Below are positions 32,765 through 35,754 of a stretch of DNA of 64,000 nt, piece by piece. This stretch comes from a gamma proteobacterium HTCC2207 (GTDB lineage: Bacteria; Pseudomonadota; Gammaproteobacteria; Pseudomonadales; Porticoccaceae). The number at the start of each line of letters is the position of its first letter. The stretch's first letter is position 1. The position numbers and the translations under genes were made by a program. The notes under the pieces are model-generated. The model had not been told where the DNA came from. It saw only the letters and a list, made by a program, of their open reading frames with translations, and searched no databases. Where the stretch lies: contig CH672397.1 in the NCBI GenBank assembly GCA_000153445.1, forward strand, positions 144,120 through 208,119, written 5' to 3'.

Positions 32765-34735
32765 TTAGGGCGTTAGCTGGAAAACTCGCACATAGTCAAC
32801 CAGCATGCCGCGAGGGAACTGAGTCGCCGTGACTGGCGAACCAGGCCAATCGCCACCTATCGCAACATTCAAGATCAAGAAAAAATCTTTTCTAAATGCC
32901 TCTGCCCGATCAGAACCATCGGCAATGGATAGCGAGTGAGTCTGAACATCATCGACATACCAAATAATCTTATCTGGTGACCACTCAATACTGAACACAT
33001 GGAAGCTGTTAGAGTAAGTCGCTCCACTCGAGAGTTTATGTTCTGTCCCTGCCGATCTTGGGCTATAGCTGGCGTCTAAACCACCGTTATTGTAGTAGAC
33101 ATTGTGCACTGCAGTGTCTTCATTGCCTGGACCACCAACGGTATCTACAATATCGATTTCACCACTGTAGGGCCAGCTAACGTCAGCGAAATTCTGCCCT
33201 AGCATCCAAATTGCAGACCAAAGGCCTTTGCCCTCTGCTACCACAGCACGAACATCTACACGACCGTAGGTAAAGGAAAAGTTGTCCTCGGTTTTAATGC
33301 GAGAGGATGTGTAAGCTCTGCCACCAAAATTTTCTTTACGAGCTTCGATAACCAATAAGCCATTTTCTACTGAGGCGTTTTCTTCACGATAGTACTCCAG
33401 TTCATTGTTACCCCAGCCGTTACTGCCAGTGCCAATATCAAAGCGCCACATATCCGTATCTAGCTCAGTACCATCAAACTCATCAGAGAATACCTTGGTA
33501 TAGCCGACGTATGAGTCTGCCGACTGGTAACCGATACTAGGGTCAGCCTTAACCCAGTCAGAGAGAGTGCCGCCGGTATTGCCTGAACTGGCAATTGGCC
33601 CATTGGGATTCGCAACCCAGCGAACATTGTCTACCTGAAACACAGTAGAGTCATGGTCCGTTGCCCAGATTGCAAAGCCGATATCTACACCTCCTAAGAT
33701 AAGTCCCTGATCAACCAGCTCGTTTATACTGACCGATAATGCAACCCAACCTGAGCCCTCGATAGCGCCAAGGCTAAAGTCGCCCGATGAACAGGGGAAG
33801 AGGCACTCCGATTTCATAGTTAGCTTGTTATCACCACTTATAATCTTCACATCAAACTCAATGGTTCCGCCAGCATAATCAGATAGATCATAGGGGGTTG
33901 ATGTCTGAGCAATAACAAAGCCGAGCTCTGCGCCAACCGCGTGATTAATTTGCAACACATCACCGCGCTCAGAGTCGCTTACTACTGACCAGGTAGTGCT
34001 CGGGCAGCTTGCATCATCACCGGTCTCACATCGACCCCACCCTTTAGCCTGGTCAACAATAACCAGCCCAGTATCCCACTCTATTGAGGTTGCGCCGTCT
34101 TGAATAATGAGCAGATCATCGGCGACTGTAGGACCCGAGGTAGCATCTTCGACAGTGACTGTTCTGATTACACTATCTGAGTTGCCAGCTACATCAATTG
34201 CTGTGTAGGTGACTGTATAAACGCCTGCAGTGCCATTGTCGACAACACCAGTAACGGTTACAGCGACTTCGCCATCAACGGTATCCGTGGCTGTGGCACC
34301 GGCATCAGACCAGGCATCATTGGTGTTAATAGAGATTGCCTGGTCACCCGCTAACGCAATAACCGGTGAACTGGTATCTGCAACGATAACTGTTCTGGTT
34401 TCGGATACAGTATTGCCCGCGCTGTCGCTGCTAGAATAGGTCAGAGTGTAAGAGCCAGCTTCCGCTGAGTTCACCTCGCCTGCTACGCTAACACTCAGGT
34501 TTGAATCTACATTGTCGGTTACGCTGGCTCCGGGATCTGTAAATGCTATGCCCTGCTCATGGGGCATTGACGATGAGCCACTCAGTGTAATAACCGGTGC
34601 ACGGGTATCAGCCGCTGGTGGGTTGGCTGGTGAGTCACTGCCACCGCCTCCACCGCCACATGCCGTAAGTATGGTTGCGGTAATGCCAACGATTAGGGAT
34701 TTACTTTTGTGGTGGAACAGATAATCTGAAAACAT
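32765..34735 (-). CDS. GH16 family glycoside hydrolase lipoprotein (laminarinase-like) with Ig-like domains
   Basis: 656 aa. Lipoprotein signal with lipobox LTAC (Cys26), then a Gly/Ser linker. Two DUF5011-type Ig-like repeats (about 45-120 and 122-200; APVITLSGS..., SPVIALAGD...). A beta-sandwich module (about 205-375) looks like an ExoP-type glucan-binding domain. The C-terminal GH16 domain (about 415-656) has YTKVFSDEFDGTELDTDMW, WGNNELEYY, LWSAIWMLG and HVFSIEWSPDKIIWYVDD. The catalytic stretch is GEIDIVD (Glu526, Asp528, Asp531): the usual E-x-D-x-x-E acid/base glutamate is aspartate here. It probably acts at the cell surface on beta-1,3-glucan such as laminarin. Confidence 0.88.
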   Translation of the reverse strand: MFSDYLFHHKSKSLIVGITATILTACGGGGGGSDSPANPPAADTRAPVITLSGSSSMPHEQGIAFTDPGASVTDNVDSNLSVSVAGEVNSAEAGSYTLTYSSSDSAGNTVSETRTVIVADTSSPVIALAGDQAISINTNDAWSDAGATATDTVDGEVAVTVTGVVDNGTAGVYTVTYTAIDVAGNSDSVIRTVTVEDATSGPTVADDLLIIQDGATSIEWDTGLVIVDQAKGWGRCETGDDASCPSTTWSVVSDSERGDVLQINHAVGAELGFVIAQTSTPYDLSDYAGGTIEFDVKIISGDNKLTMKSECLFPCSSGDFSLGAIEGSGWVALSVSINELVDQGLILGGVDIGFAIWATDHDSTVFQVDNVRWVANPNGPIASSGNTGGTLSDWVKADPSIGYQSADSYVGYTKVFSDEFDGTELDTDMWRFDIGTGSNGWGNNELEYYREENASVENGLLVIEARKENFGGRAYTSSRIKTEDNFSFTYGRVDVRAVVAEGKGLWSAIWMLGQNFADVSWPYSGEIDIVDTVGGPGNEDTAVHNVYYNNGGLDASYSPRSAGTEHKLSSGATYSNSFHVFSIEWSPDKIIWYVDDVQTHSLSIADGSDRAEAFRKDFFLILNVAIGGDWPGSPVTATQFPRGMLVDYVRVFQLTP

Positions 34736-35147
34736 GGTGCCCTCTAAAATAATTATTTTGGTTAATCAGTGCTAACGTCTTTTTTTAATGGACGGTATTC
34801 TGCAATCGAGAGGTTTTGACATCTACAAAAACGAGGTAAAAAGGGAGAGAGGTGCGATAAGAGACTATTTTCTCTTAAAATAGTAGTTTGTTATAACCAC
34901 TTGGAAGTTCGAGATGCAGTTTTCTTAGCAGGGTTTATAGTAATTGCCTGAGAGCTATCACTGCCTCTTTGAGGGCTACGTTGTGGTGTTACTTTCCCAA
35001 GCACTGCCGTTCCGGCAGTCAAAAAAGGCTATTTAATACAAAACGCTGTCATCTCGAACATATGTGAGAGATCTCTCGTCGCTGCGCTCTGTCGAGATGA
35101 TAAGTGGGGTGAATGCACTTGAAAGTTGGGAGCAATACTGCGAATAG

Positions 35148-35283
35148 ACGGCAGGATTTAATGATTAACAAACTAAAGTTTGTTAATCACCCCTATGGGG
35201 CTGCGTTGCTGCGCTCCTCGTTCAAATTCCGCCGTAGGCGTAATTTGTGAACCTGGGCGCTTTGAGCCTCGAAATCCTGCCGT
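35148..35283. other. structured tRNA-related element, copy 1
   Basis: 136 bp closed by ACGGCAGGATTT (35148-35159) and AAATCCTGCCGT (35272-35283). Inside: a 13-bp stem TGATTAACAAACT/AGTTTGTTAATCA (35162-35189), CCCC-TAT-GGGG (35190-35200) and CAAATTCCGCC-GTA-GGCGTAATTTG (35223-35247, one mismatch). The 12-bp ends equal part of the neighbouring tRNA-Pro T arm and acceptor. It could be a structured RNA or a miniature inverted-repeat element. Confidence 0.65.
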
Positions 35284-35424
35284 TCCGGCGGTTAAATAAA
35301 AAAGGCTGTCTAATCCACATCGCTGTCATCTCGAACGCACGTGAGAGATCTCTCGTCGCTACGCTCTGTCGAGATGATAAGTGGGGTGAATGCACTTGAA
35401 AGTTGGGAGCAATACTGCGACTAG

Positions 35425-35560
35425 ACGGCAGGATTTAATTAGTAGCAAACTAAAGTTTGTTACTAACCCCTTTGGGGCTGCGTCGCTCCGCGACTCGTTC
35501 AAATTCCGCCGTAGGCGTAATTTGTGAACCTGGGCGCTTTGAGCCTCGAAATCCTGCCGT
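35425..35560. other. structured tRNA-related element, copy 2
   Basis: Same layout as copy 1, 277 bp later. The long stem is TTAGTAGCAAACT/AGTTTGTTACTAA (35439-35466): bases on both arms differ from copy 1 yet still pair, with one G-T. CCCC-TTT-GGGG follows. The next stem is GTCGC-TCC-GCGAC (35482-35494), weaker in copy 1. The CAAATT...AATTTG hairpin is identical. Confidence 0.65.
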
Positions 35561-35580
35561 TCCGGCGGTTAAATAAAAAA

Positions 35581-35610
35581 GGCCATCTACTTTGTAGATG
35601 GCCTTTTTTA
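35581..35610. terminator. intrinsic terminator after tRNA-Pro
   Basis: GGCCATCTAC-TTT-GTAGATGGCC is a perfect 10-bp stem (35581-35603) flanked by A7 on the left and T7 on the right. It can stop transcription on both strands and lies just after the tRNA 3' end (minus strand). Confidence 0.9.
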
Positions 35611-35616
35611 TTTAAT

Positions 35617-35693
35617 TGGTCGGGACGGCAGGATTTGAACCTGCGACCACTACACCCCCAGTGTAGTGCGCTACCAGGCTGCGCTACGCCCCG
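35617..35693 (-). tRNA. tRNA-Pro (anticodon GGG)
   Basis: 77 nt including an encoded CCA. The acceptor stem CGGGGCG/CGTCCCG (one G-T) begins with C1 as in bacterial tRNA-Pro. The D stem is GCGC/GCGC, the anticodon stem CTACA/TGTAG with loop CTGGGGG, and the T stem GCAGG/CCTGC with loop TTCAAAT. The anticodon GGG reads CCC/CCU. Confidence 0.95.
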
Positions 35694-35754
35694 ATTTCAA
35701 GTGGGCAATCATACAGGCACAAGATGCTTTTGCAACCACAATAGTCTGTGACAG

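Follow-up and report, generated by a model that had tools for sequence, protein, structure and literature searches.

The 64,000-nt stretch of DNA analysed here (hereafter the window) carries, 3′ of its sole tRNA gene, a tandem array that appears to be a divergent branch of the RtT-type repeats missed by Rfam. Each unit of this array holds a hairpin module, named E, between pieces of the tRNA 3′ end. We consider it probable, at roughly 60%, that the locus is an RtT-type tRNA-end repeat array in which E is a gene-less DNA element that acts through its palindromes and was inserted at the T-loop.

The tRNA gene is tRNA-Pro(GGG), on the minus strand, and in the tRNA sense it is followed on its 3′ side by two 277-bp units that are 93% identical, each containing one 136-nt element. 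The two elements had been placed at 35148-35283 and 35425-35560 by the initial annotation of this DNA, and both were recovered there within the 277-bp tandem. The features of the locus are as follows, R1 and R2 being the covariance models introduced below:

35617..35693, minus strand: tRNA-Pro(GGG), source of the 3′ part copied in the units (ARAGORN; RF00005, 64.1 bits)
35569..35615, minus strand: perfect 22-bp terminator-like hairpin with A/T tracts, between tRNA-Pro and the element (inverted repeat I3, 22 nt, 100% complementary)
35298..35574, minus strand: whole near tandem unit, 277 bp (repeat D1, alignment A4)
35549..35568, minus strand: near unit, inverted copy of the tRNA 3′ end, ACGGCAGGATTT and neighbours (inverted repeat I2)
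35525..35533, minus strand: near unit, direct copy of the 5′ half of the T-stem/loop, CCAGGTTCA (from the sequence)
35437..35524, minus strand: E module, copy near the tRNA, four hairpins (R1 92.0 bits at 35433-35528; R2 71.7 bits)
35424..35436, minus strand: near unit, direct copy of the tRNA T-stem 3′ half and acceptor part, AAATCCTGCCGTC (repeat D4), with an 11-nt exact match to the own tRNA-Pro
35021..35297, minus strand: whole far tandem unit, 277 bp (repeat D1, alignment A4)
35272..35283, minus strand: far unit, inverted tRNA 3′ piece (inverted repeat I9)
35248..35256, minus strand: far unit, CCAGGTTCA (from the sequence)
35160..35247, minus strand: E module, far copy (R1 92.2 bits at 35156-35251; R2 69.4 bits)
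35147..35159, minus strand: far unit, direct copy of the tRNA 3′ part (repeat D4)

The terminator-like hairpin next to the tRNA was found to fold at -28.9 kcal/mol (z -10.2), and it was absent from the output of the consensus terminator scan, a scan which has its limits. The inverted repeat I2 has 32-nt arms (35549-35580 and 35605-35636) that are 75% complementary. Half of the terminator-like hairpin also falls within the far unit, as does a dispersed palindromic repeat. The motifs that had been read initially from the letters, namely the closing pair ACGGCAGGATTT/AAATCCTGCCGT, CCCC-N3-GGGG, CAAATT..AATTTG and GTCGC/GCGAC, are all present in the sequence, and the ends of the element indeed derive from the tRNA-Pro gene. 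The suggestion that the element was built from tRNA sequence holds for its flanks only; the four-hairpin module between them forms a separate family, common to different tRNAs. When the 136-nt sequence was compared with its own genome, two full matches and one 28-nt self-inverted piece were obtained, all at this locus, and the structure model added two related copies 3′ of tRNA-Lys(TTT) (G000:C4:103779-104043, L134). The palindromic repeat (CATCTCGAACG..GAGAGATCTCTC..CTCTGTCGAGATGA), which lies inside the 277-bp units at 35046-35100 and 35324-35377, recurs at scattered places of the own genome, and of 67 places listed there most match this part.

Read in the tRNA sense, a unit consists of the inverted tRNA 3′ end (ACGGCAGGATTT..), CCAGGTTCA, the module E of about 90 nt and AAATCCTGCCGTC. 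E is inserted in the T-loop of a partial tRNA-end copy (..GGTTCA, then E, then AATCCTGCCGTC), with the inverted end copy just before. Since GGTTCA and AATCC are the two halves of a T-arm, the position of E is precisely the T-loop of a second, incomplete tRNA copy. The module starts with C(A/T)AA, ends with ATCA and comprises four hairpins: H1 (CAAATTACGCC..GGCGGAATTTG), H2 (GTCGC..GCGAC, or GGAGC..GCGAC with a tandem G-A pair), H3 (CCCC..GGGG) and H4 (13 bp). The tandem G-A motif of H2 occurred as GA and AG jointly in 17 of the 115 rows of alignment A3. Head-to-tail copies of E (L146, L102, L290) join as ..ATCA directly to CTAA.. with nothing between, so that the ends of E are fixed and E can be defined as a module. 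It is joined flush to TTCRA and ATCC, with at most one ambiguous A. Terminal inverted repeats and a target-site duplication, the traits of a classical MITE (DDE transposon), were not found at the joints examined, and the inverted ends of the units are tRNA sequence rather than part of E; because of the flush joints, a simple IS-derived MITE bounded by terminal repeats and a duplicated target was rejected. Another repeat (GACAGATTTTTGCTCCTGCAAAATCTGCATACATGCC..) was seen inserted inside H2 of several E copies (L068, L074, L075, L005).

By blastn, the element was detected in 25 of 94 genomes, its own included; the first homologous loci lay 3′ of tRNA-Pro(GGG), tRNA-Leu(CAG) and tRNA-Ser(GCT), and each unit closed with the end of its own tRNA. 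A covariance-model search of related genomes, carried out with a model (R1) built from 33 copies, found E in 39 of 88 relatives, and a feature unique to the window locus was thereby rejected. A broader model (R2), built from 122 matches (alignment A3), gave matches in 87 of 229 genomes of the class Gammaproteobacteria. Among the R1 matches listed (173 distinct), 83 lie at most 150 nt 3′ of a same-strand tRNA or tmRNA gene, 13 immediately 5′ of a tRNA and the other 77 elsewhere. Outside the 3′ class, many are later array units, RF02902-type copies or matches close to contig ends. The 83 first-unit loci represent 17 tRNA isoacceptors and tmRNA, and the first E is 39 to 127 nt from the tRNA end, mostly 60-90. 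The best R2 locus of each of 30 genomes, one of them the window itself, was 3′ of a same-strand tRNA or tmRNA in every case, 25 at 30-94 nt and five at 227-477 nt. Altogether, the E layout was seen at tRNA-Pro, Leu, Ser, Arg, Lys, Asp, Val, Gln, Tyr, Thr and tmRNA genes of many Gammaproteobacteria, the Tyr and Thr loci coming from this 30-genome sample.

The flanks of E were then compared with the tRNA ends at 81 of the 83 first-unit loci (the tmRNA and one short end were dropped). Of 18 positions, the right flank shared 14.2 with the end of its own tRNA and 10.5 after permutation of the tRNAs (0 of 2000 permutations as high), and the own tRNA was strictly the best match in 54 of the 81 loci and tied in four. 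The left flank likewise resembled the inverted end of its own tRNA, with a score of 11.26 against 7.77 permuted (0 of 2000; 81 loci). The flanks are thus directly observed to come from the own tRNA. Arrays were also found on the 5′ side of tRNA genes: in L144 (G019:C4:594300-596000), three copies of the tRNA-Val 5′ part, each ending in GGTTCGA followed by E, precede an intact tRNA, and further examples include L203, L207, L209, L211 and L213. An intron in the T-loop was rejected because the 5′ halves in L144 have no following acceptor strand. A pattern search of contigs returned at least 120 stretches, of which 80 were analysed together with three from viral contigs; as the pattern itself contains GGTTCGA, T-loop starts found in this way are not independent evidence. 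Only one of the three viral stretches (L167) had the layout, judged by eye. Presence of the element in phage or plasmid records was rejected, blastn of window 35000-35620 giving no match in either collection. Among the openly licensed papers found by literature searches, none describes the T-loop layout of E in its title or abstract; a passage of one report places a Methanopyrus palindrome behind tRNAs (PMC5217627).

The closest known counterparts are the RtT/tyrT repeats of E. coli (RF00391, rttR). These, too, lie in tandem on the 3′ side of a tRNA gene, and each of their units combines an inverted tRNA end, GGTTCGA and a hairpin module with a direct copy of the tRNA 3′ end. In the window array, tandem units with a copied tRNA 3′ end likewise follow a tRNA gene, their parts coming in the order inverted tRNA end, GGTTCRA, hairpin module and direct tRNA end, and sequence comparison revealed that K-12 tyrT-tyrV-rttR and two E. 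coli tRNA-Ser loci share the layout of the window unit. On the other hand, the window E lies at tRNA-Pro, behind a terminator-like hairpin, and has diverged beyond the reach of RF00391, which gave no match in the window at its gathering score (45 bits), nor at E<=5 over 34900-35700. The proposal of a new structured ncRNA needs revising accordingly: because the element has the layout of the known RtT/tyrT repeats it is not wholly new, even though the Rfam RtT model has no match here.

In the own genome, RF00391 scored 80.1 bits, above its cut-off, at tRNA-Tyr (G000:C5:20165-20293, L311); it exceeded the cut-off in 11 of 88 relatives and, among 14 control genomes, only in E. coli. R2 recognised RtT loci as well, with 35.8 bits at L318, 29.5 at the own tRNA-Tyr, 29.2 at E. 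coli tRNA-Ser and 16.7-20.1 at four places of K-12 tyrT, and R1 scored them weakly, at 13.5 bits at most. L139, a locus included in the alignment A3 behind R2, scored 67.1 bits with R1 and 35.8 bits with RF00391, the latter short of the cut-off of 45. Serratia loci showed the same arrangement 3′ of tRNA-Ser. When a Serratia locus including its tRNA was used as blastn query, 5375 of 5426 E. coli genomes were matched, in 2785 cases with 80% or more of the query covered, and nine of the 10 matches listed are annotated as tRNA-Ser with "RtT sRNA". The annotation of E. coli K-12 places the rttR RNA at tyrT/tyrV. The rtT of E. coli may have a role in the stringent response. As far as the cited passages go, the RtT sRNA is up-regulated at 10 degrees in Thioalkalivibrio (PMC8092127), and RtT RNA has a tandem G-A motif (PMC7657543) of the kind also present in hairpin H2 of E. 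One passage further describes rtT RNA as a 175-bp tandem repeat that varies between Salmonella Typhi and Paratyphi A, which indicates that rtT copy number changes (PMC2658671).

A second family, AaHKsRNA22 (RF02902), has four hairpins in the same order as E. Both window copies aligned to RF02902 over its full length (1-101 of 101), with 26.0 and 24.6 bits (E 0.007 and 0.014), short of the gathering score of 39.8 bits, and R2 matched RF02902 loci, the best copy in genome G343 reaching 39.3 bits. Unlike E, the G343 copies come after AAAAGTGCGGTCA, and 12 of the 13 G343 loci have no tRNA nearby. Several of these copies (L111, L119, L125, L128, L133 and others) were seen to begin after AAAAGTGCGGT(C/T)A; such a start, AAAAGTGCGGTCA or AAAAGTGCGGT(C/T)A, is presumably akin to the DNA-uptake signal of Pasteurellaceae. 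A passage of PMC9577009 names a different family, AaHKsRNA020. It looks as though E, RtT and RF02902 form one superfamily with divergent branches; the shared layout is itself a direct observation, and the R2 matches make a family link of E to RtT probable.

When both copies were folded as RNA on both strands, 0 of 200 shuffles were equally stable in each case (z = -8.5/-5.8 on the minus strand, -7.1/-7.3 on the plus strand). Alignment A3, with 115 distinct rows fitted to R1, had 91.4% of its cells paired against 62.2% after shuffling; double changes were found in 31 of 31 pairs, with 844 double-change cells against 251 shuffled, and covariation was 0.510 against 0.118 shuffled and 0.041-0.065 with the partners slid. 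The helices are real, since pairing and covariation are far above these controls, the slid ones being given because alignments of the R1/R2 type are fitted to structure and their pair counts lean towards it. A lack of homologues with compensating changes had been named initially as grounds for giving up the idea of a kept fold; many such homologues were found. The covariation claimed for the long stem was borne out by two fully compensated pairs between the copies, although its "G-T" pair exists on the plus strand only and is an A-C mismatch on the minus strand, the tRNA sense.

The stems of E do change in a compensatory manner, as expected of selection on RNA; yet in the transcribed strand G-U was not tolerated above A-C, the counts being 44 G-U and 40 A-C among 3015 cells of A3. 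Similar figures were obtained from the 23 best-aligned pairs (28 and 22) and from the R1-type alignment A2 (39 and 33); the rows of alignment A1 were picked by hand. In the tRNA control from the same loci (acceptor and T-stems of 187 distinct tRNA genes), G-U outnumbered A-C by 78 to 3 among 2244 cells. This absence of a G-U bias in E, unlike tRNA stems, points to mutations that fit DNA palindromes rather than RNA selection, and decayed copies contribute to the equality. The simplest readings of it are that the palindromes are kept as DNA, or that the arms are copied onto each other. The argument made at the outset, that co-variation implies selection on the folded form of an ncRNA, was not upheld, given these mismatches and the terminator-like hairpin between the tRNA and the element, and action of E at the level of DNA is supported.

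The inheritance of E was followed with 34 hand-picked copies. Copies at the same tRNA in different genomes were most alike (median identity 0.78, 89 pairs), from which E appears to be inherited with its tRNA locus; copies at different tRNAs of one genome had 0.65 (23 pairs), the same as all other pairs (0.65, 449 pairs), and recent movement of E within a genome was thus not seen among these copies. Replacement or loss does occur: in some species (L024, L025, L379, L382) the E found in the tRNA-Pro slot is of a quite different type, and in others it is truncated or absent; empty tRNA-Leu and tRNA-Pro sites were inspected by eye. Some tRNA-Leu(CAG) loci without E (L358, L363, L375) were seen to have, in some genomes, phage-integrase-like ORFs directly after the tRNA end (by eye). 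Of the 83 first-unit loci, 54 have a terminator-like hairpin between the tRNA and E, and none was found there at the other 29, among them all seven of tRNA-Leu(CAG). Such a hairpin stands behind the tRNA-end copy that follows the first E at 28 of the 83 loci, and at 5 of 78 in a control stretch. This would fit a unit that was inserted in the T-loop and displaced the old 3′ end outwards together with its terminator.

The units span 160-280 bp, with no room for an integrase gene. At one locus (L201), a 7.3-kb island with an integrase-like ORF, recognised by eye, was seen between tRNA-Ser(GGA) and its E unit; given this position and its own copy of the tRNA end, the island looks like a later arrival. 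A transposase-bearing insertion between tRNA and E at L228 also looks like a later insertion, and gene cassettes as a rule were dropped from consideration because both look later-inserted. At two loci, stretches with genes separate E copies that are themselves each followed by copies of the tRNA end: L154 (G207:C11:28500-38500; LRR, AbrB-like and HigBA-like ORFs by eye) and L155 (G097:C30:7000-14500; an ankyrin-like ORF).

Several other explanations of the array have to be weighed. E, as an rtT-like RNA, could be a functional structured RNA, read from the tRNA promoter and with a function in the 3′ trailer of the tRNA, for instance in processing or that of a small RNA. The strong fold and covariation, the RtT sRNA/RttR annotations of E. 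coli at these places, the G-A motif shared with RtT RNA according to a passage of PMC7657543, the loci lacking a hairpin before E and the cold response described in a passage of PMC8092127 all speak for it; the equality of G-U and A-C, which tRNA stems do not share, and the terminator-like hairpin that precedes E in most loci and in the window make us regard it as unlikely, if a serious contender. The paired changes might instead have arisen by mutation, the palindrome arms being copied onto each other by template switching and the tandem copies by gene conversion, so that covariation would come without selection. Mismatches that are symmetric between the strands, the zig-zag order of direct, inverted and direct tRNA pieces and the many nearly perfect stems would all be produced in this way, but it leaves unexplained that the unpaired joints and the layout (GGACG.., ..ATCA) are also conserved over great distances and that the lengths and order of the four hairpins persist, and we hold it to be distinctly improbable.

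Integration could have left its traces here, too. The T-loop and the tRNA 3′ end are known crossover places of integrases, and tyrosine integrases leave copies of the tRNA 3′ end, so that E could be an attP arm and the arrays stripped or stacked att sites; the island with its integrase-like ORF at such a tRNA and the gene-bearing stretches of L154 and L155 would suit this. However, a single E family serves many different tRNAs, the units carry no genes, the L201 island looks later, and inheritance of E follows the tRNA locus, all of which leaves such remnants about as doubtful as template switching. Flush insertion, the lack of terminal inverted repeats and end hairpins are features of IS200/IS605-type transposons, and E might accordingly be a MITE of a Y1 transposase of this type inserting 3′ of TTCRA. 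E does follow TTCRA or ATCA flush, has hairpins near both ends without terminal inverted repeats, and inserts head-to-tail after its own end; but it has so far been tied to no transposase, and its target is in practice only the T-loop of tRNA or tmRNA genes, for which we consider this origin quite unlikely, more so than the others.

The preferred reading, a gene-less DNA element in an RtT-type array, also has points against it: neither an inserting enzyme nor an insertion event was seen; RF00391 lacks a match in the window and R1 scores RtT loci weakly; copies at different tRNAs of one genome are no more alike than random ones; 27 of the 81 loci do not have their own tRNA end as strict best match; 12 of 13 RF02902 loci of G343 lack a tRNA; and rtT RNA is transcribed in E. 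coli according to its annotation and cold-induced in Thioalkalivibrio according to a passage of PMC8092127. Under this reading, E would act via its palindromes, and either E or the whole unit (tRNA 3′ end, terminator, inverted end, GGTTCRA, E) would be inserted at the T-loop dyad, which would restore a working tRNA and shift the old 3′ end outwards. The arrays would grow and shrink through recombination between tRNA-end copies, and rtT RNA would be a read-through product that was possibly put to use in some hosts. Insertion as a unit at the T-loop and recombination of a single strand are what we infer from the arrangement.

As both T-arm halves occur in direct and inverted order, one strand could refold into a double-stranded T-arm target from whose centre E bulges, which may be likened to folded attC or phage attP sites. 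Integron attC, folded phage attP, REP/REPIN and IS200/IS605 hairpins act as DNA hairpins. They offer an analogy to E in that a DNA hairpin would be the recognised or evolving unit and half-sites are repeated in inverted order; E differs in being tied here to no recombinase or transposase, and the likeness is an analogy only. As a speculative, rather doubtful extension, RtT-type units might together be a mobile DNA system devoid of genes that folds as a single strand to target the tRNA T-loop; a recombinase acting in trans would insert the unit into tRNA genes while restoring the tRNA, and the gene-bearing stretches of L154 and L155 would be cassettes.

Two separate Rfam families and an unlisted branch are hereby placed in what appears to be a single tRNA-linked superfamily (87 of the 229 sampled genomes of the class), which is given a precise anatomy, a module in the T-loop of a tRNA-end copy. 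The rtT repeats of E. coli have long been catalogued as an RNA whose role is unclear; they may in the first place be DNA palindromes, and the question of DNA or RNA is directly testable in E. coli K-12.

Beyond the far unit, a very weak third E-like stretch was seen at 34934-35000 (nhmmer 8.7 bits, E 0.36), and a tRNA-end-like CTGCCGTTCCGGCAG at position 35004, which together suggest an older, decayed unit. The next gene (32765-34735) encodes a lipoprotein-like protein of 656 aa, the C-terminal part of which resembles a GH16 laminarinase by eye.
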